Shown here: positions 8,161 to 20,188 of the stretch, one piece after another
Layout of the letters: each line of letters begins with the position of its first letter
Numbering within the stretch: the stretch's first letter is position 1
NCBI RefSeq assembly: GCF_000750005.1
Contig: NZ_JPYA01000057.1
Span: forward strand, 1 to 33,220
DNA: 33,220 nt
Source: Geobacillus icigianus
GTDB taxonomy: Bacteria; Bacillota; Bacilli; Bacillales; Anoxybacillaceae
Direction: 5' to 3'
Translations under genes and position numbers: made by a program
The notes under the pieces: model-generated
What the model was told of the DNA's origin: nothing
The model's database searches: none
What the model saw: the letters and a program-made list of their open reading frames with translations, nothing else

Positions 8161-8300
8161 CTAGGAGGCCGGTGATTTCGTGCAAAATACTACTGCTTCC
8201 ACCTATTTCTCAATTAGAGAAACCTCGTAGAAACAGCCTTCTTTTCTGAATGAAAATGCGATGATTGGTGTGTGACAGCGGTTTTTCACCAGCCTTCTAG
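8161..8300 (+). repeat. 140-bp repeat family, copy 3 (complete)
   Basis: It starts CTAGGAGGCCGGTGATTT and ends GTTTTTCACCAGCCTTCTAG, so CTAG is present at both edges. The centre is TTTCTCAATTAGAGAAA. It lies in the presumed 5' untranslated region of the HAD gene. Confidence 0.8.
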
Positions 8301-8364: not shown

Positions 8365-9225
8365 ATGCTTATTGCCTTAGATATGGATGGAACGCTGTTG
8401 AACGGGGAGGGAAAAATCAGCGAACCAAACCGAAAAGCGATCGCAGCCGCACAAGCGCAAGGCCATATCGTCGCCGTCGTCACCGGGCGGGCGCGCAAAG
8501 ACGCACTCGCCCCGCTCCGCGAGGTGGGGCTCGTCTGCCCGATCGCCAGCTTAAACGGGGCGATCGTCACGCTCGAAGACGGCACTGTCATCAGCGAGGC
8601 GCCGCTTGAGCGGGCGGCGGTCCGCCCAGTGCTTGAGTGGGTGCGCGAACAGGCGGACTTGTATTGTGAGACGTACACGGGCGATGCGGTCTATGTCGGC
8701 TTGCATAACCGCGCTCAGTGGGAAGCGCTCGCTTCGGAGGTGGCTGAGGCGGCGCCAGAGGTGAAATGGCTCGTGAACAAACAGTTCCAGCAGGCGCGGG
8801 TGACGTACGTCGACGACATCCGCACCGTGTGGGACGACCCGGCGCGGGTGATGTATAAGCTGCTGATTTTCGCCCTTGACCGCAAGCGGCTTCTTGATGC
8901 GGCGTCCCGTTTCGCCCCGCTCCCCGGCGTCACGGTCACCTCGTCACATCCGCACAACATTGAGATGAACAACGAACGGGCGACGAAAGGGGAGGCGCTC
9001 AAGCAACTCGCCGCCCATTACGGCATCGATATGCGCGATACGGTCGTCTTTGGCGACAGCCATAACGACTTATCGATGTTTGCGGTGGCGGGCTGCCGCG
9101 TCGCCATGGCCAACGCCGCCCCCGAATTGAAAGCGAATAGTGATTTCGTCACCCTCTCCCATGAGGAAGACGGCGTGGCCGCGGGGCTTGAGCAGGTGTT
9201 GGCGCGGCGAGGAACAAGCCGATGA
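8365..9225 (+). CDS. Cof-type HAD-IIB sugar/nucleotide phosphatase
   Basis: The protein has 286 residues, with ATG 8365 chosen for the GAGGG site 8 bp upstream. HAD motif I is LDMDGTLLNG with the nucleophilic Asp near residue 6, motif II lies around VVTGRARK, and motif IV is VVFGDSHNDLSMF near the C-terminus. The roughly 190 residues between motifs II and IV form the C2B cap typical of the Cof/YwpJ group, followed by the lysine of NNERATKGEALKQL. These enzymes dephosphorylate small phosphometabolites such as sugar phosphates or flavin and pyridoxal phosphates; the exact substrate cannot be read. The gene is monocistronic, from an extended -10 promoter at 8128 through a repeat element to a terminator at 9238-9287. 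Confidence 0.88.
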   Translation: MLIALDMDGTLLNGEGKISEPNRKAIAAAQAQGHIVAVVTGRARKDALAPLREVGLVCPIASLNGAIVTLEDGTVISEAPLERAAVRPVLEWVREQADLYCETYTGDAVYVGLHNRAQWEALASEVAEAAPEVKWLVNKQFQQARVTYVDDIRTVWDDPARVMYKLLIFALDRKRLLDAASRFAPLPGVTVTSSHPHNIEMNNERATKGEALKQLAAHYGIDMRDTVVFGDSHNDLSMFAVAGCRVAMANAAPELKANSDFVTLSHEEDGVAAGLEQVLARRGTSR

Positions 9226-9237
9226 CCTTCCCCAGCT

Positions 9238-9287
9238 GCACACCCCAAAACAGCCGCAAAAACGGCAGGGGGTGTGCAAGCCTCTTT
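9238..9287 (+). terminator. Terminator after the HAD gene
   Basis: GCACACCCC pairs with GGGGTGTGC around a 20-nt interior that can itself pair (CAGCCG with CGGC), and is followed by CTCTTTTTCTTT. Confidence 0.75.
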
Positions 9288-9427
9288 TTCTTTCGGTTCA
9301 CGAAACATGGTATTGATAAATCAATAGCTTGAACGTTTGACAATTTCGGTCAGCTGTACAAGTTGACATAATCAATTTTTATGATTTGAGGGGATATGAG
9401 GGGTGTGCAAAATGGCCTCTTGCCGCC
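9288..9427. other. Intergenic stretch before the first CRISPR leader copy
   Basis: No gene is visible. A perfect TTGACA lies at 9363-9368, but the nearest TATGAT (9380-9385) is only 11 bp away, so no promoter is called. Confidence 0.3.
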
Positions 9428-9567
9428 TTAGAAGGCTGGTGAAAAACAGCGATCGCCCCTAGCTGACGTCGGATGACGTGAAACGAGAAGCTGATGTCGC
9501 AAAGTTTCTCAATTTGAGAAACAAGGCGGTGAAGCAACCTGTTCCTTTTGTCACCATCCTTTTAAAG
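9428..9567 (-). repeat. 140-bp repeat family, copy 4 (inverted), forming most of a CRISPR leader
   Basis: On the minus strand this copy runs from TTAAAAGGATGGTGACA through GTTTCTCAAATTGAGAAAC to GTTTTTCACCAGCCTTCTAA, aligning end to end with copy 5. It stands directly upstream of a CRISPR repeat remnant at 9592. From about 9469 onward it is nearly identical to the leader at 19598. Confidence 0.75.
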
Positions 9568-9622
9568 AGTCAAGGGGAAAATGAAGGTGCTGTTGAAAGT
9601 AGTGGGCCTCGCGGAGAGGATT
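9469..9622 (+). CRISPR. CRISPR leader plus truncated first repeat (array remnant)
   Basis: From CGGATGACGTGAAAC to GCGGAGAGGATT this stretch matches 19598-19752 with only a few differences (one inserted G and two or three substitutions). The repeat at 9592-9622 keeps 31 of 36 bases and loses the terminal GAAAC, being followed by CTTTGCCCC and then, 20 bp on, by repeat copy 5. It is best read as the leader end of an array whose body was deleted. Confidence 0.7.
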
Positions 9623-9642
9623 CTTTGCCCCTTTGAAAAATT

Positions 9643-9782
9643 CTAGAAGGCCGGTGATTTAAGGGAGCAGGCCGCTTACCGGTCTCGTTTCTCAAATAGA
9701 AAAGCTCTGTCGCATCGGTATCGCCTTTTACACATTCCCCCATCGTTCAAAAGAAACAACCGTTTTTTTCCCAGCCTTCTAG
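9643..9782 (+). repeat. 140-bp repeat family, copy 5 (complete)
   Basis: It begins CTAGAAGGCCGGTGATTT and ends CCCAGCCTTCTAG, with the central GTTTCTCAAATAGAAAAG. CTAG lies at both edges. It replaces whatever followed the truncated CRISPR repeat. Confidence 0.8.
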
Positions 9783-10433
9783 GGAATGTTTCCCCTGTTT
9801 GTCCTCAGTTGACGCTTCACGCGGGATAAGGCCGCAGGAATCTTGAATCGTTAACGCCTTCACCTGTTTCACGTTCGATCGCTCCTAGGTTCAAAGATGT
9901 GTCGTTGGCTTGTTAAAGTGTACAGTTCCGTAAGCTGATGGGCTTCCGCTTATGCTAGGCATGTTTATTATGTTAATGTCCCCACGTAATGGCGAGGCGA
10001 TGGGTTGTGTACCCATAAGCTTGAAAGCAATATGGACAGACTTTTGCTTATGAAACAGCAACAAACTAGACGCCTTATTTTGCCTCTAAAAGAAGCGGGC
10101 TGTCACGTCGGCTTTTGGTGATGAGAGATGGAAAATGGGGAAGATTCTCCTAATTTGACACAAAAATAATTAAATAATAGTGAAAATTAACTATTTTTAT
10201 GGTATGATAACCATGTCAATCTAGAAATTTCTTTGTGTGGGAGAATTGCCCTCGTGCGATGCAAGCAAGTTCTGAGGTGGGTTTGACTATGTGGAGGGGC
10301 AGAAGGTGCCTAATGTTCTCTGCACCCCGCTGTTCGATTGTGTACATAAGGGGATGTTAGGTTTTCACCTTAGGCGGTCTACGGCGGAAAATCAGTTCAA
10401 AATCAGCAAACGATTTTGATAGGAGAAAGCTGA
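9783..10433. other. Non-coding stretch upstream of the cas6 relic
   Basis: I see no gene in about 650 bp. Possible signals are a promoter at 10180-10208 (GTGAAA, 17 bp, TATGAT) and a bulged hairpin at about 10293-10329 (GGGGCAGA with TCTGCACCCC). The region may be decayed DNA from the lost array or lost genes. Confidence 0.35.
10180..10208 (+). promoter_or_regulatory. Possible promoter of the Cmr island
   Basis: GTGAAA (10180-10185) and TATGAT (10203-10208) are 17 bp apart in an AT-rich stretch. This is the best promoter candidate upstream of the cas6 relic and the CARF-HEPN gene. Confidence 0.4.
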
Positions 10434-10570
10434 ATGTCAAGCATCATCGAGCAACTCGTAGATTCTTTTCCTTATATTCATGTACGCGTCGTGTTGGAGT
10501 GCCAGAGTGCCGGGTATATTCCGAAATACAAGGCATCGATGATTCGCGGGATCGTTGCGAGAGTATTTAA
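10434..10570 (+). pseudogene. cas6: cas6 relic: N-terminal fragment of a RAMP endoribonuclease
   Basis: The ATG at 10434 has AGGAG 8 bp upstream. The first 45 or so residues (IHVRVVLECQSAGYIPKY, then KASMIRGIVARVF) resemble the start of Cas6-type pre-crRNA endonucleases, in which a strand followed by x-P-x-Y-K-x-S-x-x-R-G is conserved. After about residue 46 the similarity ends and the DNA continues, in a different frame, as a histidine phosphatase fragment. The reading frame from 10434 runs on to 10676 as an 80-residue chimera of no evident meaning. Catalytic and Gly-rich C-terminal RAMP parts are absent, so it cannot process crRNA. Identification rests on a short segment, so I am moderately sure. 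Confidence 0.55.
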
Positions 10571-10965
10571 AAATATTGGACGATTTGCGGGCGATGAACT
10601 ACGGGAAGCCAAGCGGGCTGACGAAAAAGGAAGCGGAAATTTTATATCCTGTTCCGCCGAGGCAGGTAATATTTAACCGAGCGTATGACGGCGAATCCGA
10701 GCTTGAGTTTCACCGGCGGGTGATTGAGTTGTTCTATGAACTTGTTCATCGCCATCAAGGGCAAACGGTATGCATTGTCACGCACGGGCGGGCCATTAAC
10801 GCCATTTTGAAAGAAGTCATGAACTTACCGCTTAGCCATGACTTTCGGGTCGATTCGGCCGATACGTCCATTCACCATTTCGTGATGCGGCAAAACCAAA
10901 CGTTGCTCCGGTGTATCAACCATACAGATCATTTGGTAGCATTGCAGATGGATGTGGCAAAGTAA
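10567..10965 (+). pseudogene. Histidine phosphatase (PGAM-like) remnant lacking its N-terminus
   Basis: The frame gives DDLRAMNYGKPSGLTKKEAE, then QTVCIVTHGRAINAILKEV and a C-terminal strand region. These are the middle and end of a phosphoglycerate-mutase-like phosphatase, with the second catalytic His in VTHGRAI. The N-terminal RHG motif and roughly 50 residues are missing; the sequence before the junction belongs to the cas6 relic in another frame. No start codon with a ribosome site precedes it (a GTG-like or TTG start near 10555 would only add junk), so it is taken as a broken gene. It lies 75 bp upstream of the CARF-HEPN gene. A broad-specificity phosphatase of central metabolism is the likely ancestor. 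Confidence 0.7.
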
Positions 10966-11040
10966 CTTGTGATAATTAGAAATTCTGTATTTCCTTGGTT
11001 TGACTATGAGAGATTCCAATGGCGGCAGAGGGGGAGAAGA

Positions 11041-12366
11041 ATGATCAAATTTTTATCCTTTTTAGGGACTGGTCGTTATTTGTCTGGCGTATACCATCTC
11101 GAAGGAATCAAGTCAGAGACAACACCTTTCGTGCAAAAAGCAGTATTGGATATATTGCGGCAGCAAGGAATCATGGTTGACCGTGCGTATATTTTCGTCA
11201 CAGAAAAAGCGGAAAGCACAAACTGGGCTGGTTTAGCTTCTGAATTAGAGCAGTTGCGCAAGCAAATGGACGGCTTTCGATATGACGCGGTGCGTATTCC
11301 GACAGCGGTATATCCACAAGAAGTATGGGAAATGTTTGAAATCGTGACGAACGTGTTGGAAGAGGAGGATGAGGTGATTTTTGACATCACCCATTCATTC
11401 CGCTATCAGCCGATGTTGGCGCTTCTTACTCTTCATTACGCCCGGATTACAAAACGTGTAAAAGTGTTAGGAATCTATTACGGGTTGTTTGAACAGGAAA
11501 ACGGGGAACATCCAATCATTGATTTAACAGCCTTTTCCGATATGCAGGACTGGGTGACGAACGTATACTCCTATATCCAGACAGGCAATGCCAACGCTCT
11601 GAGTCAATGGGTGTTGGAGCGTGGAAAAATGATCCGAAACCAGGAGAAAAGGAGTACTGAAGATTTAAGCAAGTTAAATAGCGCCACCCAGAAACTTAAA
11701 GAACTGACAAGTGCGCTGCAAGCGAGCCGTGCTCCGTTAGTATCGAAAATAGCAATGGAAGCGTCCCAATCATTAAAAGAGTTGCAGGAAGTCAGCGGCA
11801 GCTTGCGGCCGATGTTCCGTCCATTGAAAGTGCTGTACCAAAAAATGGAGGAAGATATTAGTGACTTGGCTGTTCAAGACGACATCTTGTCTGGTTTGGC
11901 TGCGATTGAGTGGTGCATCAACCATGGGCTCACACAACAAGCATATACACTTGCCAGTGAACTTTATACAACGGCCATATGTTTGAAATATAAATGGAAT
12001 CCATACGGCAAAAAGGAGGAGGGGGAAGAGATCAGCAAGAGAGAGTTAGTCGATCGGGCGTTGACTGCCGCGATGAAAATTATTGAAAAGAAACATTCAA
12101 TGGATCAATACCGCGAACAATATCGTGATGAGAAATATTTGTCACTGATTGAAATGGTGCTTTCACATAGACCGTTGCTTGATATATTGCACAAGATCAG
12201 AGATTATCGCAATGACTTGAACCACGGCGGATGGCGGCCGGCTCCGTTGTCAAGCGAAACGCTAGAGAAGAAAATAGTGGAACTGTTCGGCCAATATCGC
12301 TCTCTGTTGTTGGAATTTTGGCAAAGTCATGTTGAAAGTGGGGAGAACAATCTTGCTGCAAAATGA
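11041..12366 (+). CDS. csx2: CARF-HEPN CRISPR ancillary ribonuclease, TM1812/Csx2 type
   Basis: The protein has 441 residues. ATG 11041 is chosen because AGGGGGAG lies just upstream; the frame from 10969 lacks a ribosome site. The N-terminal half is a Rossmann-like CARF domain with the hallmark D-x-T-H motif of this family at residues 115-120 (DITHSF), in EVIFDITHSFRYQP. A coiled-coil-rich middle (about 215-290) leads to a helical HEPN domain with the R-x4-H RNase motif RNDLNH at about 390-395. Proteins of this build bind cyclic oligoadenylate made by Cas10 and then cut RNA non-specifically. It is the first intact gene of the Cmr operon and its end overlaps the cmr1 start, implying translational coupling. 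The symbol is a family label (TIGR02221-like), not proven orthology. Confidence 0.85.
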   Translation: MIKFLSFLGTGRYLSGVYHLEGIKSETTPFVQKAVLDILRQQGIMVDRAYIFVTEKAESTNWAGLASELEQLRKQMDGFRYDAVRIPTAVYPQEVWEMFEIVTNVLEEEDEVIFDITHSFRYQPMLALLTLHYARITKRVKVLGIYYGLFEQENGEHPIIDLTAFSDMQDWVTNVYSYIQTGNANALSQWVLERGKMIRNQEKRSTEDLSKLNSATQKLKELTSALQASRAPLVSKIAMEASQSLKELQEVSGSLRPMFRPLKVLYQKMEEDISDLAVQDDILSGLAAIEWCINHGLTQQAYTLASELYTTAICLKYKWNPYGKKEEGEEISKRELVDRALTAAMKIIEKKHSMDQYREQYRDEKYLSLIEMVLSHRPLLDILHKIRDYRNDLNHGGWRPAPLSSETLEKKIVELFGQYRSLLLEFWQSHVESGENNLAAK

Positions 12367-13222
12367 GTATACGTGTGAAATAATTACGCCGCTTGTCGCT
12401 AAGGGAGCCGACAAGAGCATACTGGAACTTCGCGCCTCGGCTTTGAAAGGGGTGATGCGATTTTGGTGGCGGGCGTTGCATGGCCATCTTTCGTTCGAGG
12501 AACTGCGAAAGAGGGAAGGGGAATTATTTGGAGAAAGCGGCATGAGCCAATCCCCATTGACTGTTCGTGTTTGGAGTATTTTTCCTAGCGGAGAGACGTA
12601 TTTACTTCCGCACAAAAAGCAGGTGAGAACGAGAAGTTACAAGTGCGGCCAGTCGTTCAAGGTGGTGTTGAAGGCAAGAAAACATCTAGAACTATATGAT
12701 CGGTTATTCAAAATAGTTGTTCTGCTTGGGGGATGGGGGATGCGAAGCCGGAGAGGATTTGGGAGTATAACGATTAGGAAAATAAATGGGAATCCCTATG
12801 CCTTACCGAGCGACTCGCTAGGCATTAAGTGTTTGCTAGACGATTTTTATGACAAATCAGGCATCGCAAGGCCGATGATCGATGTGCGGGAGTCTGCCAT
12901 TGTTGTTTCATCTAACCGCGATAATCGGTTTCCTTATATAAAGATGATTGAAGTAGGGGATGTGTGGACAAATGCTGATTCCCTCCTCCAAAGGATTGCT
13001 CAAAGTGCTAGCGATCATAATCACGAACATAAAAGAATTGCTAAGTCCGGCCGTCGTTTTGCTTCCCCTATCGTCGTTTCAGTTATTGAAGATCATTCCT
13101 GTCAAGTTAATCGGAGCGGCCGGCTGCGGCCGATTATTACGACGTTGAATTCTGTTCCACCTTTTTCTTTAAAAGGGGAGGTGGATCAGTTCCAAGCATT
13201 CAAGGAGGCGATTTTGACATGA
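12353..13222 (+). CDS. cmr1: Cmr1, type III-B RAMP protein
   Basis: The protein has 289 residues from TTG 12353, which has GTGGGGAG 7 bp upstream; ATG 12329 in the same frame adds eight residues but lacks a ribosome site. The opening NEYTCEIITPLVAKGADK and the RAMP helix LRASALKGVMRFWWRALHG are diagnostic of Cmr1. A glycine-rich RAMP loop, GMRSRRGFGSITI, lies near residue 140. Cmr1 sits at the end of the Cmr effector that contacts the 3' part of the crRNA and the target RNA. The gene starts inside the CARF-HEPN gene and its stop overlaps the cmr2 start as ATGA, so the genes are translationally coupled. Length is near the lower end for the family. Confidence 0.9.
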   Translation: MLQNEYTCEIITPLVAKGADKSILELRASALKGVMRFWWRALHGHLSFEELRKREGELFGESGMSQSPLTVRVWSIFPSGETYLLPHKKQVRTRSYKCGQSFKVVLKARKHLELYDRLFKIVVLLGGWGMRSRRGFGSITIRKINGNPYALPSDSLGIKCLLDDFYDKSGIARPMIDVRESAIVVSSNRDNRFPYIKMIEVGDVWTNADSLLQRIAQSASDHNHEHKRIAKSGRRFASPIVVSVIEDHSCQVNRSGRLRPIITTLNSVPPFSLKGEVDQFQAFKEAILT

Positions 13223-15015
13223 ACAGATCGCTGCTTTATGTGACCATCGGCCCGGTACAGAGTTTTATCGAGCAGGCACGGAAAACACAAGATCTTTATA
13301 TTGGCAGCTTGCTTTTGTCGCATTTGTCGCAAACTGGGATGAATTTGATCCGTTCTGAGTATGGGGGGACGATTATCTTTCCCAATCCAGAGAACGATTC
13401 TGCTCCCAATCGATTTGTAGCCAGCCTTTCTGGGCATTATTCAATCGATGAAGTAGGTCGACAAGTCGAGTGGCATATTCACGAAGAGTTTATGAGAATT
13501 GGCAAAAGCTTGATTGGACCGGACAAACTCTCGTTTTTTGTGTCTGATTCCTTTCGACAGTCGTATTTTGAACAGCTAGAAGCCCATCTGCAAATTTTCT
13601 GGGTCGGTATCCCGTATGATGATTATCATCGCTCATATGCCAAGCTGGAAACATTGATGGGGCAGGTAAAAAACATCCGTCCGTTCCGCCAGATTGAGGA
13701 GCAGGGAAGAAAATGCAACTTGACGGGGGAACACAATGTATTATTCTATCGTAATCCGAGAGTGGATAAAGAAGGAAAGAGAAAGTTTTTTATCCCGGAA
13801 GAAGCGATCCCTTTAAATGGGGAGCGATACGTTTCCTATATCCGTGAAGGGGAGTATTTAGGAGCTCTTGGTTTTATCAAACGGTTTGCCTTTATGGATG
13901 AAGCATTCAAAAACAAGAAGATCCAATTTCCATCGACTGCTAAGGTGGCCATGCTCGACATCTTGACAGATGAGGAAATAGAAAACGATCATATTGATTA
14001 TGCATATGTATTTGACATACTAAACGAAAATCCACCAGCTAACGACATCACCGAGCAGCAGCGCAGGGAAAGCGATAAACTCATTCAACGGTTGAAAGCA
14101 GAGAAGAAGCGACCGAACCCATACTATGCCATGATCGTATTTGACGGTGACAGCATGGGAGAGTGGTTCGGCGGGGGGAAACTCGTGCATAAAGAGCAGC
14201 TTGAAGCGTTCCAGGAAAAGTTTACGTTTTGCCTAGGGGAATACGCCAAATGGGCGAAACGATATTTGAACGGGTCAAGAGGAAAAACGGTGTATGCCGG
14301 CGGGGATGATTTGTTTGGCTTCATCAACCTCGGCTGTCTGTTTGAGGTCATTGACCAACTGCGGCAAGAGTTTGACAGGCAAGTGAACCAAAAGTTGCAG
14401 GGGGAGTTTGAGCTGAGCGGGCAGCTGACGTTTACGGCTGGCATCTGCATCGGCCATTACAAAGAACCGCTTGCAGATGTCGTCAGAGGAGCTCGTTATG
14501 CAGAAAAAATAGGAAAAAAAGTTGAACCGAAACGCCCCGATGAACAAGAAAAAGATGCTTTTTGCATCAGTGTTTTGAAAAGAAATGGGGAACATCTGAT
14601 TTCAGCACTGAAGTGGGGCGTCTCCAGCCAAGAAAATGAAAGCACACCTCGATTGTTGCAGCAAATTCTTGCTTTAATGACAAAACATTTTTCCGATACG
14701 TTTTTGCAAGTGTTGTCCCGTGAATTGTTTGCCTTCACCCGGAAACCATTCCGGGGAATGATGGAGGCGGAGCTGAGAAGGCTGCTCAACCGAAGTTTCA
14801 AAAAGGTAGACGGGGTGTCTAGAGAGGAGACTGTTGAAGAGTTGCTCTCCCTGCTGATGAAATTGTGGAAGATCAGCGACTATCTTCCGACAATCAACCA
14901 AAAAGCAGTCGGAGTGCAGACAGAGAATCATTCGATTTTGAATTTTATAAATACACTGTATATCCTTTCGTTCCTTAAACGACATCAAGCTGATGGAAAG
15001 GGAGACGGGCAATGA
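13219..15015 (+). CDS. cmr2: Cmr2 (Cas10), large subunit with GGDD cyclase, HD domain absent
   Basis: The protein has 598 residues. It starts within four bases of the cmr1 stop and begins directly with SLLYVTIGPVQSFIEQARKT, the D1 opening of Cmr2; no HD nuclease domain precedes it and no HD dipeptide occurs in the protein up to the palm domain. The first palm motif is MIVFDGDSMGEW (residues 305-316) and the GGDD motif is at 361-364 (VYAGGDDLFGF), both intact. The protein should therefore make cyclic oligoadenylates when target RNA is bound but should not carry the classical HD single-strand DNase. About 600 residues is typical of HD-less Cmr2 and short of the roughly 870 of HD-bearing forms. 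The C-terminal 200 residues form the helical D4-like domain. It is the signalling subunit of the Cmr effector. Confidence 0.92.
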   Translation: MNRSLLYVTIGPVQSFIEQARKTQDLYIGSLLLSHLSQTGMNLIRSEYGGTIIFPNPENDSAPNRFVASLSGHYSIDEVGRQVEWHIHEEFMRIGKSLIGPDKLSFFVSDSFRQSYFEQLEAHLQIFWVGIPYDDYHRSYAKLETLMGQVKNIRPFRQIEEQGRKCNLTGEHNVLFYRNPRVDKEGKRKFFIPEEAIPLNGERYVSYIREGEYLGALGFIKRFAFMDEAFKNKKIQFPSTAKVAMLDILTDEEIENDHIDYAYVFDILNENPPANDITEQQRRESDKLIQRLKAEKKRPNPYYAMIVFDGDSMGEWFGGGKLVHKEQLEAFQEKFTFCLGEYAKWAKRYLNGSRGKTVYAGGDDLFGFINLGCLFEVIDQLRQEFDRQVNQKLQGEFELSGQLTFTAGICIGHYKEPLADVVRGARYAEKIGKKVEPKRPDEQEKDAFCISVLKRNGEHLISALKWGVSSQENESTPRLLQQILALMTKHFSDTFLQVLSRELFAFTRKPFRGMMEAELRRLLNRSFKKVDGVSREETVEELLSLLMKLWKISDYLPTINQKAVGVQTENHSILNFINTLYILSFLKRHQADGKGDGQ

Positions 15016-16181
15016 GAGTTCTCATTCAGCCGCTTGACCTTCTCTTTGTCCGGGATGGGAAGCCGTTTTCGATGGGGGAGGATGTCACGGCTCAAAGCGT
15101 TTTTCCACCGCCGCCTAGCACGTTTTATGGGGCGTTGCGCAGCGCCTATTTTGGAACGAATCCAAATGAATTCACCCCCAGGCAGCTCAACACCGACGAT
15201 GATCCTACTGTTTCACTGACGGTCAGGGGAGTGCATGTATATGACGTGGAAAAAAAGCACTTTATTTTTCCGATTCCGTTAGATCTCGTCATTAAGGAAG
15301 ATGACAGCGAGAGGCAAGCATATGAATTACAAATGAAAGAAAGGAATTTTTCTTCAAACTATCCGTTTCGAACGATTCTCGCCCCGCCGGATGAGCAAAA
15401 CATGTACCGCTCGGCAGAAGGAAAATACATAAACGAAAAAGAGTTAAAAAAATATTTGCAAGGTTTAAGAAACAATGAGCATATTCGTTATTTGCCTCCG
15501 GAAGAGGGAGCGGATGAACAACCTATAGCCAAAACGGAAATGAAAATCGGCATTGCTATCGACCGCCGAACGAGAACAGCGGAAGAGTCCAAACTTTACC
15601 GTATGGGGATGAAGCGCCTTCATCCAGCCTATCGTTTTTTCGTTGATTTTGATGGGCTCGATGGGTTAAAAGATTCAGGACTGCTTCGTTTGGGGGGAGA
15701 AGGAAGAACGGCCTTTTACTCAAAAACGGAAATCGAGCCGCCTACGTTTGCGTGGCCTGACTATCATCCGAATTCTTCGTCCTCTCCCTCTAGGCAGCTC
15801 TTTAAGCTGTATTTTGCTGCTCCTACTTACTTTGCCAACGGTTGGCTGCCAAGTTGGATTGATCCGGAAACGATGTCCGGTGAATATCAGGGAATCAAGC
15901 TCGACTTGGTGACGGCCGCTGTCGGCAAGTACATGGCGCTTGGCGGATTCGATATGAAGGAGCGTTATCCTAAGCCGATGCGGCGTTTTGTTGGTGCAGG
16001 GAGCGTCTATTATTTCGCTGTTTCGTCTGAACACATCGAAGAGGTGACCACGATCTTTCATGATCAATGCATATGCGATGAGCCCCAATGGACAAAGCCA
16101 ACATACGCTCAACAAGGGTTTGGTCTTTGTTATGTCGGAAAGGTGGCGGCCAATGAAACGGATGAGACATCGGTCGTGTAG
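15012..16181 (+). CDS. cmr3: Cmr3, type III-B RAMP protein
   Basis: The protein has 389 residues, with its start overlapping the cmr2 stop (ATGA). The N-terminal RVLIQPLDLLFVRDGKPFSM followed by VFPPPPSTFYGALRSAYFG is the Cmr3 signature: first RAMP strand, then the proline-rich loop and helix. Further Cmr3-like features are KIGIAIDRRTRTAEESKLYR and LRLGGEGRTAFY, and the Gly-rich C-terminal part AYAQQGFGLCYVGK-like region at 365-380 (TYAQQGFGLCYVGKV). Cmr3 binds the 5' handle of the crRNA next to Cmr2. The gene ends 33 bp before two inserted repeat elements, which separate it from cmr4 by about 1 kb, unusual for this operon. Confidence 0.9.
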   Translation: MRVLIQPLDLLFVRDGKPFSMGEDVTAQSVFPPPPSTFYGALRSAYFGTNPNEFTPRQLNTDDDPTVSLTVRGVHVYDVEKKHFIFPIPLDLVIKEDDSERQAYELQMKERNFSSNYPFRTILAPPDEQNMYRSAEGKYINEKELKKYLQGLRNNEHIRYLPPEEGADEQPIAKTEMKIGIAIDRRTRTAEESKLYRMGMKRLHPAYRFFVDFDGLDGLKDSGLLRLGGEGRTAFYSKTEIEPPTFAWPDYHPNSSSSPSRQLFKLYFAAPTYFANGWLPSWIDPETMSGEYQGIKLDLVTAAVGKYMALGGFDMKERYPKPMRRFVGAGSVYYFAVSSEHIEEVTTIFHDQCICDEPQWTKPTYAQQGFGLCYVGKVAANETDETSVV

Positions 16182-16214
16182 ATGAAGGGAGTTATGAGGA
16201 GAAATTTGTAAACT

Positions 16215-16354
16215 CTAGAAGGGCAGTGATTTAAAGGGAAATACTGCGCTCTAACAGTGTTTCTCAAATTGAAAAAACCTTGTAACGTCATCATTTCATT
16301 CCTTGTAATTTCCCACAAATCGATCGAATCTGTTATTTTTCACCAGCCTTCTAG
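16215..16354 (+). repeat. 140-bp repeat family, copy 6 (complete)
   Basis: It runs from CTAGAAGGGCAGTGATTT to TTTTTCACCAGCCTTCTAG, with the centre TTTCTCAAATTGAAAAAACC. It shares its right-hand CTAG with the next copy. Confidence 0.8.
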
Positions 16355-16489
16355 GAGACCGGTGATTTAAGGGGACAAGTCGCTTATCAAGCCCGTTTCT
16401 CAAATAGATAAGCCTTGTCGCATCAGGATCGCCTTTCAAGCGTTCCCCCATTGCTCAAGAGAAACAACCGTTTTTCACCAGCCTCCTAG
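16351..16489 (+). repeat. 140-bp repeat family, copy 7 (complete, abutting copy 6)
   Basis: It runs from CTAGGAGACCGGTGATTT to TTTTTCACCAGCCTCCTAG, with the centre TTTCTCAAATAGATAAGCC and TTGTCGCATCAGG. It is more like copy 5 than copy 6, so the tandem pair reflects two insertions (or an insertion into the CTAG edge) rather than a simple duplication. Its right edge is fused to the open frame of the truncated gene that follows. Confidence 0.8.
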
Positions 16490-17145
16490 CGATTGATTGG
16501 AATACGTTTGAAAAGTATGCGAGTGTAATTAGGGATTTACACGCAGGAATCGACGCTTGGGAAGAGTACAAACGAAAGCATAACATTAGCTACGACTTCA
16601 GTGCTTGTATTTCTACGACGGATGGAAAAGACGCCTTCTTGAATGCGATTGGCGAAATGTTTTATCGCATATATCAAAAGTTTCAACTCGTTTACGTCTT
16701 GCAAAATGGCCCGTTCTCGCAAGACGAGGCTCATCGGAATCGTCAAATTTTGCGTCAAGAAATAGGAAAACTGATATCCGCTTTAACTAACTATATCAAA
16801 AGCAATGGTTTAACAAAAGCAACAAAAGAAGAAATCGTTCAACGCATGACGATGCCAGAACAAACAGACGGAAAGGATGCGGGAGAGCTTGTTCACGCCT
16901 GCCGCCCAGGGGACGAGCATTTTATTTTTAAAGCCCCGCGCTCGGGCATAGAAGTGCGTCTGTTGTATTCGTTTGATTATGACCATATCCAAGAAAAGCT
17001 TACGAAAGTGGTCATTTATGATTTTCGCGTTGGCCAATTTAATCATAGCAGTTATATTAAGGAATTCCGCACATTTTATCAACTTAACAAAGATCGTGAG
17101 TTAATTCCGTATTTGCTTGAGCCAAATAACTATATAACTCAATGA
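16490..17145 (+). pseudogene. Unknown gene beheaded by a repeat element, between cmr3 and cmr4
   Basis: An open frame continues without interruption from inside repeat copy 7 (open since 16408) to the TGA at 17143-17145, but native-looking sequence starts only at 16490 (AIDWNTFEKYASVIRDLHAG). There is no ATG or GTG with a ribosome site; the TTG at 16639 has none either. About 218 residues of C-terminal protein remain, with a helical part (GEMFYRIYQKFQLVYVLQNG) and a strand-rich end (GIEVRLLYSFDYD, KLTKVVIYDFRVGQF). I do not recognise the family. Base composition and codon use resemble the cmr genes. It is followed 21 bp later by cmr4, so it was probably an accessory gene of the island before truncation. 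A functional short product is possible but unlikely. Confidence 0.6.
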
Positions 17146-17166
17146 ACTAGGAGGAGTTCAGTTAAG

Positions 17167-18156
17167 ATGTATCAGTTAGCGAAACCGTTAATCTTCATCA
17201 GTGCAACCCCATCCCATGTTGGGGCGGGGACGGACTTAGGAGTTGTCGATTTGCCAATTCAACGGGAACGTTACACGGGATTTCCAAAGTACGAGGCTTC
17301 CAGTGTGAAAGGCAGCCTGAAAGATGCTTTTTATGCATTAGCCGCTAAAAGCAAGGAAGATGTGGCGGATCGTGCCGAACTTCAGCACCCGAATGGCCGA
17401 TTCGGCAAAATAAACAAGCAAATGATTGAAGATGTGTTTGGAAAAGATGAACAGGCGGATCACGCTAGCGCTATTGCGTTCACCGATGCCCGAATTTTAT
17501 TGTTTCCGGTCAAATCGCTGAAACATGTGTTTGTTTGGATTACGTGTCCGCAAATTCTCAGCCGTTTCAAACAGGAAATGCAGCTATGCGGGATTGACCT
17601 TTCCACATATGACCACAACCTCGAGGGAACAATCCCTCAAGGAAGTGATTTGATCATATCGGGGCAGGGGGTTTTGCTAGAGGAGTATTTGGTCAACGTT
17701 CAACAGAGCGATGAGTGCACCAAATGGGCAAACTGGTTTTCAGAGAATCTATTTCCTTCCTCCGATGAGTATCAGTATTGGCGCAATAAATTAACACGCG
17801 ATTTAGTCATCGTTCCAGACGATGTATTTCGAGATTTTGTCATGTTGTCAACCGACATCGTGACAAGGGTGAGAATCGACCGGAGTAAAGGAATTGTCAA
17901 GGAGGGGGCTTTATTTACAGAAGAGTATTTGCCAGCTGAATCGGTTCTTTATTCACTGGTGATAGCCTCCCCTGTTCTGAAATCGAAAGACGAGGGGCTG
18001 TCTGATGAACGATTCGCGAGCGCGCAAGGGGTGATCGATTTCTTTGCACAGTTTTTGCCGAGAGTCATTCAAATCGGTGGCAATGAAACGATTGGCAAAG
18101 GGATCACTCGCACTCACCTTATCGAAGACGGCAGGAAACAGACGATTGAGGTCTAG
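17167..18156 (+). CDS. cmr4: Cmr4, backbone RNase subunit of the Cmr complex
   Basis: The protein has 329 residues, from ATG 17167 with TAGGAGGAG about 10 bp upstream. The N-terminus KPLIFISATPSHVGAGTD, then LGVVDLPIQRERYTGFPK and YEASSVKGSLKDAFYAL, is the highly conserved Cmr4 opening. The Asp of GVVD (residue 28) is in the position of the catalytic Asp that cuts target RNA every six nucleotides in characterised Cmr complexes. FTDARILLFPVKSLKHVFVW is the second diagnostic block, and a Gly-rich RAMP end, QIGGNETIGKGITRTHL, lies near the C-terminus. Several copies should form the helical backbone around the crRNA. Because elements interrupt the operon upstream, cmr4-6 depend either on read-through from cmr3 or on a promoter inside the insertion; I see no strong one. 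Confidence 0.93.
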   Translation: MYQLAKPLIFISATPSHVGAGTDLGVVDLPIQRERYTGFPKYEASSVKGSLKDAFYALAAKSKEDVADRAELQHPNGRFGKINKQMIEDVFGKDEQADHASAIAFTDARILLFPVKSLKHVFVWITCPQILSRFKQEMQLCGIDLSTYDHNLEGTIPQGSDLIISGQGVLLEEYLVNVQQSDECTKWANWFSENLFPSSDEYQYWRNKLTRDLVIVPDDVFRDFVMLSTDIVTRVRIDRSKGIVKEGALFTEEYLPAESVLYSLVIASPVLKSKDEGLSDERFASAQGVIDFFAQFLPRVIQIGGNETIGKGITRTHLIEDGRKQTIEV

Positions 18157-18179
18157 TGAGAGAAGAGGGAGGAAATAAA

Positions 18180-18671
18180 GTGAGCAAGCTCATTGATATC
18201 GAACAAGAACGGGCGAAATTTGCCTACGATTGTGCGAGCTTTGGCATTTCCATTGCAGAGGAAAAGAAAGCGTACAATGATGAGTATTATTTTGATGAGA
18301 ACTATGCATCTTACGTAAAAAAGATCCCGGCATTAATCAAAACGAACGGACTCAGCGCCACGTTTGCTTATGTATTTGCTAAAAGAAAAAAGGAAGACAA
18401 GAAACCAAACGGAACGGTAAAACTACCTGGAAGCAAAGATCATCCGAAAAATGCATACGATTTAATTTACGAGCAAACGCGGCGATGGCTGGCTGACAAT
18501 CCTGTCGTTTCTTTCCCAGAGTTGAAGAGAAAAGACACGGAGCTTATGAAATTGCTGCTTTCTTTAAATTCCGAACAATATCGCCAAGTAACGTTAGAAA
18601 TTTTGCGCCTTTTCCAATGGTTGCGTCGTTTCGTCGAGGGAGTGAAGTTAAGTGGTAAAATACCGTCCTAA
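18180..18671 (+). CDS. cmr5: Cmr5, small subunit of the Cmr complex
   Basis: The protein has 163 residues, from GTG 18180, which has GGGAGGAAA 5-6 bp upstream; an earlier GTG at 18156 overlapping the cmr4 stop lacks a site of its own. The sequence is all-helical and charged (IDIEQERAKFAYDCASFGIS, then KKIPALIKTNGLSATFAYVFA), matching the Cmr5 small-subunit pattern of an N-terminal QERAxxAY helix and a middle IKxNGLxxTxA segment. Cmr5 stacks along the Cmr4 backbone on the target-RNA side and has no catalytic role. A Lys-rich loop (residues 70-85) could contact RNA. Its end overlaps the cmr6 start by 20 bp. Confidence 0.88.
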   Translation: MSKLIDIEQERAKFAYDCASFGISIAEEKKAYNDEYYFDENYASYVKKIPALIKTNGLSATFAYVFAKRKKEDKKPNGTVKLPGSKDHPKNAYDLIYEQTRRWLADNPVVSFPELKRKDTELMKLLLSLNSEQYRQVTLEILRLFQWLRRFVEGVKLSGKIPS

Positions 18672-19536
18672 TGAAAAAAAAAATAAAAAACGGAATGACG
18701 CAAAGAAAAACGAGCAGATGTTTGTGGAGCGACTTTGTCTGCCAGCAGATACAAGAAGAGTATTGGTTACCGAAAATGATATTTTTTCATCAGGAGCCGA
18801 TAATTATTGGCTTCAGTATCATCGGCTCGTTGAACAGCCTAATGACCAAGAAAAGGAACGACTACGTCCCTCAGTCTTCCACTTTAAGCCTGCTTTCCAA
18901 CAGGAACTGTTTGACAACTTGGTCAAACGTCAAAAAAAGATCATTGCAGATAGTGGATGGGAAAGTCAATGGTTTCAAGTCAGTTTTGAATGGCGGCTGG
19001 CTCTCGGTTTAGGGGATGCATCTGTCTATGAAACATCCATTACCCTGCATCCGTTGTATGGGTATCCGTATTTGCCGGCTCAGGCCATTAAAGGCGTTTG
19101 CCTCTCTTATATGATTTTTGAATATTTTGATGGCGAGGAGAAGAAAGCGGAACAATCCCAAGCCTTCCGTTTCCTTTTCGGCGATCAAGACGAGCAGGGG
19201 AGTGTCATATTCACGGACAGCATCCCTGTGCAAATACCAAAAATCAAAGAGGACATCATTAACGTTCATTACAAAATGTATTACCAACAGCAAAAATGGC
19301 CTGTAGACTATGATACACCATCGCTTGTGTCATTCCCTGTCGTCGAGAAACCGAGATTCCAGTTTGGCGTTCTGTTGAAAGAAAATGTGACATTTACTGA
19401 AGAGCCATTTAGAGACGAAACAGCCACCCAGGTATTGAAGAAGCTTGTTTCCGGTGCATTTTCCGAGCACGGAATCGGCGCAAAAACGGCTGTCAATTAC
19501 GGATACGGAATCGCGCAATCGATAGAAGGATGGTAA
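18652..19536 (+). CDS. cmr6: Cmr6, type III-B RAMP protein
   Basis: The protein has 294 residues, from GTG 18652 inside the end of cmr5, with GGGAG about 8 bp upstream. A very basic N-terminal tail (KYRPNEKKNKKRNDAKKNEQ) precedes the RAMP fold. Diagnostic Cmr6 blocks are LHPLYGYPYLPAQAIKGVCL, AFRFLFGDQDEQGSVIFTDS and the C-terminal Gly-rich EHGIGAKTAVNYGYG. Cmr6 caps the backbone opposite the 5' handle, next to Cmr1. It is the last gene of the operon; the CRISPR leader begins about 60 bp after its stop on the same strand, and I see no terminator between, so read-through into the CRISPR is possible. Confidence 0.92.
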   Translation: MVKYRPNEKKNKKRNDAKKNEQMFVERLCLPADTRRVLVTENDIFSSGADNYWLQYHRLVEQPNDQEKERLRPSVFHFKPAFQQELFDNLVKRQKKIIADSGWESQWFQVSFEWRLALGLGDASVYETSITLHPLYGYPYLPAQAIKGVCLSYMIFEYFDGEEKKAEQSQAFRFLFGDQDEQGSVIFTDSIPVQIPKIKEDIINVHYKMYYQQQKWPVDYDTPSLVSFPVVEKPRFQFGVLLKENVTFTEEPFRDETATQVLKKLVSGAFSEHGIGAKTAVNYGYGIAQSIEGW

Positions 19537-19566
19537 AAAACCAGTATCTCACCCTGTCTGGGGCGC

Positions 19567-19697
19567 TTGGAAGGAATGGGAAGTGTAGCTGGTCAAATCG
19601 GATGACGTGAAACGGAGAAGCTGATGTTGCAAAGTTTCTCAATTTGAGAAACAAGGCGGTGAGGCAACCTGTTCCTTTTGTCACCATCCTTTTAAAG
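19567..19697 (-). repeat. 140-bp repeat family, copy 8 (inverted, partly deleted), within the second CRISPR leader
   Basis: From 19598 to 19697 it is nearly identical to copy 4. The outer end (TTGGAAGGAATGGG) is degenerate and lacks about 20 bp relative to copy 4. The centre is TTTCTCAATTTGAGAAA. Confidence 0.65.
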
Positions 19698-19721
19698 AGT
19701 CAAGGGGAAAATGAAGGTGCT
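19598..19721 (+). promoter_or_regulatory. CRISPR leader of the one-spacer array
   Basis: This is the sequence immediately 5' of the first CRISPR repeat. It is duplicated nearly unchanged at 9469-9591, where it also precedes a repeat of the same sequence, which argues that leader and repeat move or are conserved as one unit. It contains a 17-bp palindrome and overlaps the inverted repeat-family copy 8. Confidence 0.6.
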
Positions 19722-19832
19722 GTTGAAAGTAGTGGGCCTCGCGGAGAGGATTGAAACAAAAGACCTCTTTCTCTATGCTTGCAATCTTTCTTTTTTGTTG
19801 AAAGAATTGGGCCTCGCGGAGAGGATCTAAAT
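19722..19832 (+). CRISPR. Minimal CRISPR: two 36-nt repeats, one 39-nt spacer
   Basis: Repeat 1 (19722-19757) begins GTTGAAAG, has the core GGGCCTCGCGGAGAGGAT with a short CCTC/GAGG stem, and ends in the typical ATTGAAAC. The spacer is 19758-19796. Repeat 2 (19797-19832) begins GTTGAAAG, keeps the core, has two internal changes, and its end is degenerate (CTAAAT), as is usual for the last repeat of an array. The ATTGAAAC end and position beside cmr6, on the same strand, make this the array for the Cmr complex. The spacer is pyrimidine-rich and its target is unknown. Confidence 0.85.
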
Positions 19833-20188
19833 CGGCCATCCCGCCGGATTGCTTGACAAAGGATAGCGCATTTTTCGGCGGTTTGGTCTATGGAACACCT
19901 AGGAAGGGCGATGTTGCCGTTTTCTTGGGTGTTTTTTGTTTGGCTGAATGGCTGTTGTGTCACTGTGCGGAGGATGTTCGGCTTGCGCAACGGGCGGGAG
20001 CTGGCTTATGATGAAGGAAAGATGACATATCACCGTGTTGGCGATCAAGCAATTGGTGAATGACCGATTGGGTGACGCATGGCCACACGGTTGATGATGA
20101 GCGGACGATCTTCGTTTGCGGAAGTTGGTCTTTTCAACGGCTGGCCGCCGTGTTGGATTGGGCAAGGTGATGAATGGGGGAGCGATGA
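19833..20188 (+). other. Intergenic stretch between the CRISPR and aroD
   Basis: No gene is supported. A terminator-like hairpin lies at 19893-19937. Beyond it I see no convincing promoter, although aroD must be transcribed from somewhere in this region. Confidence 0.35.
19893..19937 (+). terminator. Terminator at the end of the Cmr-CRISPR island
   Basis: AACACCTAGGAA pairs with TTCTTGGGTGTT (two mismatches) and is followed by TTTTTG. It would end transcription coming from the CRISPR. Confidence 0.55.

Follow-up and report, generated by a model that had tools for sequence, protein, structure and literature searches.

A MITE in the leader of an orphan mini-CRISPR array of Geobacillus icigianus: very probably an interruption of a pre-existing leader

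In the Geobacillus icigianus contig stretch analysed here (33,220 nucleotides, referred to below as the window), the DNA directly upstream of a CRISPR repeat resembles, in inverted orientation, a short element that is dispersed nearby. This raises the question of whether the leader was built from a mobile-looking element, whether it gave rise to the element family, or whether the element entered a leader that was already there. Judging from comparisons of nucleotide sequence, the last reading is very probably the correct one: a MITE would have jumped into the conserved leader of a tiny array, which would be interrupted by the MITE and not built from it. Such behaviour is usual for a MITE; what is unusual is the location.

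The element upstream of the repeat and its family

The preliminary description had aligned the reverse complement of 9428-9567 with 9643-9782. The alignment is real, with a local score of 86, whereas 1000 single-base shuffles averaged 20.6 and did not exceed 38. It was also borne out that a member of a mobile-looking family lies directly upstream of the CRISPR repeat, inverted with respect to 9643-9782 (score 78 in this orientation versus 39 in the direct one). A nucleotide profile made from 34 other elements of the window genome, the leader copy being excluded, located the element on the minus strand at 9432-9561 with E = 1.3e-22, and two standalone elements of the same genome matched the leader element with 84–85% identity along about 130 bp. 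Concerning the right copy, which had been placed at 19567-19697, there is indeed a family element, found by the same profile with E = 4.5e-14, but its true extent is 19526-19691 (166 bp), and the left copy has nothing that corresponds to about 19555-19585. The features at the left leader and its surroundings are the following:

8165-8296, plus strand: further MITE of the family
9330-9427, plus strand: distal native leader, also present in element-free leaders; the similarity extends upstream to about 9274
9428-9431: left target duplication TTAG, part of the ancestral leader (flank reading, leader alignment)
9432-9561, minus strand: inserted MITE in the leader, 130 bp (alignment, end search, profile), inverted with respect to the element 9647-9778
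9562-9565: right target duplication, reading TTAA in this copy but TTAG in G012, the sister species (flank reading, leader alignment)
9562-9591, plus strand: proximal native leader, with 5 of 26 core positions changed and the predicted -10 changed from TAAAAT to GAAAAT
9592-9622, plus strand: single truncated CRISPR repeat, with no spacer after it
9643-9782, plus strand: dispersed MITE, the element itself spanning 9647-9778 between CTAG duplications

The element at 9640-9785 gave 52 matches in the window genome, and the 15-base element end (at most one mismatch) gave 316, against none for the reversed control. Full copies are mostly 129–133 bp long, start with AAGGCYGGTGA and end with TCACCRGCCTT (at most two mismatches), these being terminal inverted repeats of 11 bp; the leader copy itself, of 130 bp, is short and non-coding and contains no transposase. 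Identical 4-bp flanks were read in 31 of the 45 elements at the loci fetched from the window genome, mostly CTAG, also TTAG and CTAA, and 79 of the 90 flanks fit YTAR; in 40 stretches of G012, identical flanks occurred in 18 of 25 elements. Since six of the identical pairs of the window genome are non-palindromic, they are true target duplications. The same terminal ends are carried by a 1.54-kb insertion sequence (IS), the intact copies of which encode a transposase of 493–501 amino acids, the second full-length copy of the window genome containing a stop codon. Ten IS copies were inspected: seven, in the window genome, G001, G002, G006 and G012, have identical 4-base flanks (CTAG, TTAG or CTAT), and the flanks of the other three are unlike (TTAG/CTAA in one window-genome copy, CTAG/CTAT in those of G003 and G011). 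The transposase matches Pfam DUF772, DDE_Tnp_1 and DDE_Tnp_1_6 above cutoff, and its nearest model, the best of six hit, is that of IS1182 (NF033551) with 217.8 bits, which is below the cutoff of 270 and leaves it outside that family as the model defines it.

From these features, the dispersed elements appear to be a MITE family with the 1.54-kb IS as its presumed autonomous partner. Most likely, the leader MITE was mobilised in trans by the transposase of this IS (DUF772/DDE_Tnp_1 type, nearest to IS1182). The family seems to have moved recently, as the copy at 8165-8296 is absent from G012, where there is a clean empty site with a single CTAG. The subfamily to which the leader element belongs also occurs as standalone copies: 23 matches of at least 120 bp, 83–92% identical, were found in five genomes, with no leader sequence in the match, and none of the four whose surroundings were read is next to a CRISPR array. 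The matches in G004 and G006 (query positions 86-226) had been considered as further filled leaders and were rejected, their contexts not being CRISPR.

Leaders with and without the element

A search with an element-free leader, covering 41 family genomes of which 14 belong to the genus, returned similar leaders from 14 of the 41. The element is missing from 19 of the 22 leader junctions that could be read, the sequence being continuous across the site; the core, as read across 18 of these, is CCTTAGAAAATCAATGGTAAAATGAAGG, and the nineteenth (G006:1292k) was missed by the leader-similarity searches and read separately, so the set of 19 is not exhaustive. G031 was counted as empty on the basis of the insertion site itself, which was read, the search match ending at position 177 of 221. 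Excluded from the junction counts were G004:1289k, next to the same hydrolase gene as the window leader, where the leader is deleted before the junction, and G001:C49, which runs into a contig end. The alignment of 15 leaders, 13 of them empty, showed that the non-coding DNA immediately preceding the first repeat is conserved, as in a CRISPR leader. At the orthologous locus, empty leaders were found beside the hydrolase gene that flanks the window leader in G002, G003 and G008:C16 (hydrolase protein identity 85–90%), and the leader of the paralogous array C171, in the same genome as the window, is also empty. The three filled junctions (G012 at 2352k and the left and right copies of the window) represent one orthologous locus in two species plus a duplicate. 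In G012 the element stands between perfect TTAG/TTAG flanks and in the window between TTAG/TTAA.

The terminal repeats, the target duplications, the filled and empty sites and the presence of the IS are read directly in the sequences. Because leaders without the element exist and a TTAG duplication is preserved in G012, the element very probably entered a leader that existed already. The 130-bp MITE would have transposed into a TTAG site within the leader of an orphan mini-CRISPR array and duplicated the 4-bp target, most likely in one event, before this Geobacillus species and its sister G012 diverged. The earlier proposal that the leader derives from the element is contradicted by the 19 of 22 leaders of the same kind that are empty and read through the site. 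Likewise, the statement that most of the leader is element was wrong as to origin, as native leader is present on both sides, about 100–150 bp upstream of 9428 and at 9562-9591. The preliminary description would have taken the case as a chance insertion if the element were present only at these sites and other arrays with the same repeat had an unrelated leader: among the readable arrays the element is indeed confined to these sites, but the leader of the other arrays is related. So, it can be said that a leader may look transposon-derived when it is only transposon-interrupted, and that the comparison of orthologous and paralogous leaders settles it.

In a search of named genomes, the exact leader pattern was found in two stretches, both of Geobacillus thermodenitrificans DSM 465. 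The large arrays of the window genome have a different repeat, ending in ATTGAAAC (104 pattern matches). Four of their leaders were readable (L225-L228), and no MITE was found in them by the profile at E up to 10; the other large arrays of that repeat start at contig ends.

The second copy, the Cmr cassette and the predicted promoter

The right part of the locus contains the following features:

10969-19536, plus strand: type III-B Cmr operon (Csx1, Cmr1, Cas10, Cmr3, unassigned ORF 16639-17145, Cmr4, Cmr5, Cmr6), which the orthologous G012 locus lacks
19526-19691, minus strand: second copy of the leader MITE, 166 bp; its proximal part is nearly identical to the left copy and its far end overlaps the 3′ end of cmr6
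19692-19721, plus strand: proximal leader of the second copy, identical to 9562-9591
19722-19832, plus strand: mini-array, with a full 36-nt repeat (19722-19757), a 39-nt spacer (19758-19796) and a degenerate terminal repeat (19797-19832)

The 10-kb Cmr cassette (about 9623-19597) sits between direct repeats at 9485-9622 and 19615-19752, 138 bp long and 99% identical, which are composed of MITE, proximal leader and CRISPR repeat; G012 has one copy and no cassette. The locus of G012 consists of leader, element, repeat, one spacer, terminal repeat and approximately the first 120 bp of the right flank. The window thus has the insertion product twice because the cassette lies between two element-leader-repeat copies. 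Recombination at this segment either brought the cassette into the window locus or removed it from that of G012. In the window, both proximal leaders have the same sequence, with changes absent from G012, so that either the duplication postdates the split from G012 or conversion has kept the copies uniform. Cas10 of this Cmr type was found, at E 1e-60, only in the window's own genome among the 41 of the family, and within the genus a distant relative (28–33% identity) occurs in 4 of the 14 genomes, that of the window included; this comparison of Cas10 across the 41 family genomes did not reveal the origin of the cassette.

Several minor observations concern this region. The spacer at 19758-19796 differs from that of G012 (L096), which lies between the same first and terminal repeats; searched against phages as 19757-19796, it gave only a weak partial match of 24 nt (E 0.6), taken as chance. 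At 19522-19540 the last codons and the stop of cmr6 coincide with the terminal repeat of the MITE (ATAG AAGGATGGTAA). The 168-aa ORF at 16639-17145 within the Cmr operon has no match in PADLOC, NCBIfam or Pfam. At 10434-10965 a histidine phosphatase gene seems to be disrupted: the ORF at 10555 matches the domain from position 72 of the 194-position profile onwards, and the ORF upstream of it, at 10434, matches nothing in Pfam or NCBIfam. No match was obtained in Rfam for 9200-20000 (E up to 1) or in the plasmid collection for 9400-9800.

Concerning the possible effect of the insertion, a TAAAAT box is present in 15 of the 18 empty leaders, mostly after TGG; in the consensus its position is nine bases upstream of the first repeat. 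A -35-like hexamer, TTGCCR or similar (at least 4 of 6), occurs 16–18 nt upstream of the -10, also in 15 of 18, and the nineteenth empty leader (G006:1292k) has a weaker version (TTGTTG and TAAAAC). In every one of the three filled leaders the best -35 reaches 1 of 6. In a putative pre-crRNA promoter with TTGCCR and variants as the predicted -35 and TGGTAAAAT as the extended -10, the insertion would therefore come to lie between the two and would remove the -35. A consensus promoter scanner with its own thresholds called no promoter in the window, nor in the empty leader L084, the -35 of which is TTACCG. Whether the splitting of this predicted promoter would bring about a weaker transcription of the array we regard as evenly balanced; the acquisition of spacers might be weakened too.

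The loss of the array cannot be attributed to the insertion, since the arrays behind empty leaders are equally tiny, with 0–4 recognisable repeats per locus at the threshold used. In the same way, the decay of the proximal core is no proof of lost function, because some empty leaders have changed as much: the filled leaders differ at 5 of 26 core positions in the window and at 2 in G012, and the empty ones at 4 in G003, up to 4 in G038, 7 in G031 and 9 in G013 (the last being an ungapped count across a one-base deletion). A leader insertion that would naturally split a predicted promoter, together with 19 uninterrupted leaders, could help to test which part of the leader is needed. Orphan mini-arrays with a conserved leader and 0–4 recognisable repeats are many in Geobacillus and its relatives (L071, L060, L061, L062, L063, L150-L154, L231).

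Alternative readings and related cases

That the likeness of leader and element arose by chance in AT-rich, palindromic sequence has in its favour that the centre and the ends of the element are palindromic; the shuffle scores, the profile E value and the identity to the two standalone copies given above refute it, and its probability is negligible. That the leader gave rise to the dispersed family, the other origin put forward in the preliminary description, draws on the similarity of leader and element alone and is very improbable indeed, the empty sites refuting it: the 19 element-free leaders carry native sequence across the site, the ends and target duplications of the elements are common to an IS that bears a transposase, and standalone copies of the subfamily, with no leader sequence, exist in genomes whose readable leaders are empty (G004 and G006, for example).

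A third alternative accepts the insertion and proposes that the MITE was domesticated: having replaced the -35 side of the leader, it would supply a signal for transcription or spacer uptake and be kept by selection, the array still exchanging its spacer afterwards. We consider it quite unlikely, although several data agree with it. The leader element is identical in the window and G012 (130/130), with 19 substitutions in 263 positions (7%) of the adjoining DNA (9226-9427 and 9562-9622; Fisher p 6e-4) and 40 in 681 in four intergenic stretches (p 1.4e-3); the two filled arrays have different single spacers; and both strands of the element fold well (z -3.4). Nevertheless, the identity comparison was made after the fact, and in a control with 53 MITEs of the window genome against 40 20-kb stretches of G012, which gave no clean empty site, the only usable shared pair had 0 substitutions in 140 positions of the element and 2 in 296 of the flanks. 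The folding follows from the terminal repeats and the palindromic centre (z -0.8 in the neighbouring copy), and different single spacers can also be explained by loss within a longer array. Moreover, most leaders of this kind are empty, no spacer follows the truncated left repeat, and the proximal leader adjoining the element is changed in the window, in its core and its -10, though some empty leaders are changed equally. Selection, a short recombination tract or luck are all possible causes of the identity with G012. If it were selection, this would be a rare case of the reuse of a MITE in a CRISPR leader.

The reading of a MITE interrupting an existing leader has known relatives. In the accessible parts of the sources, a MITE, HqIRS37, is described inside a spacer of Haloquadratum walsbyi HBSQ001 (PMC3119063), and IS and MITE insertions in cas genes (PMC10359306), so MITEs at those two locations are already known; ISs within the CRISPR array are described for Xanthomonas citri (PMC6889575) and E. 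coli ATCC 8739 (PMC2886076). The case of HqIRS37 is alike in that a MITE lies within a small residual CRISPR array, but there it is in the spacer, whereas the Geobacillus MITE separates the predicted -35 from the -10 within the leader. In the other three reports mobile elements likewise interrupt parts of CRISPR-Cas, but the leader was not found as an insertion site in what could be consulted of them. The literature consulted, mostly without subscription papers, yielded no description of a MITE in a CRISPR leader or of a Geobacillus MITE family.

As to the family itself, bacterial and archaeal MITEs mobilised in trans by ISs are treated, in the parts available, in a review (PMC10969869) and in work on Haloquadratum (PMC3119063) and Sulfolobus islandicus (PMC3718332). 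The Geobacillus elements resemble them, as far as those parts go, in being short and non-coding, in sharing terminal inverted repeats and target duplication with a resident IS and in their high copy number, but differ in the diversity of their internal sequence and in that copies are often tandem. Two tandem MITEs lie at 16219-16485 inside the Cmr operon, between cmr3 and the ORF at 16639, and another MITE (L231:1206-1335) lies outside the empty leader G006:1292k, about 500 bp downstream of it.
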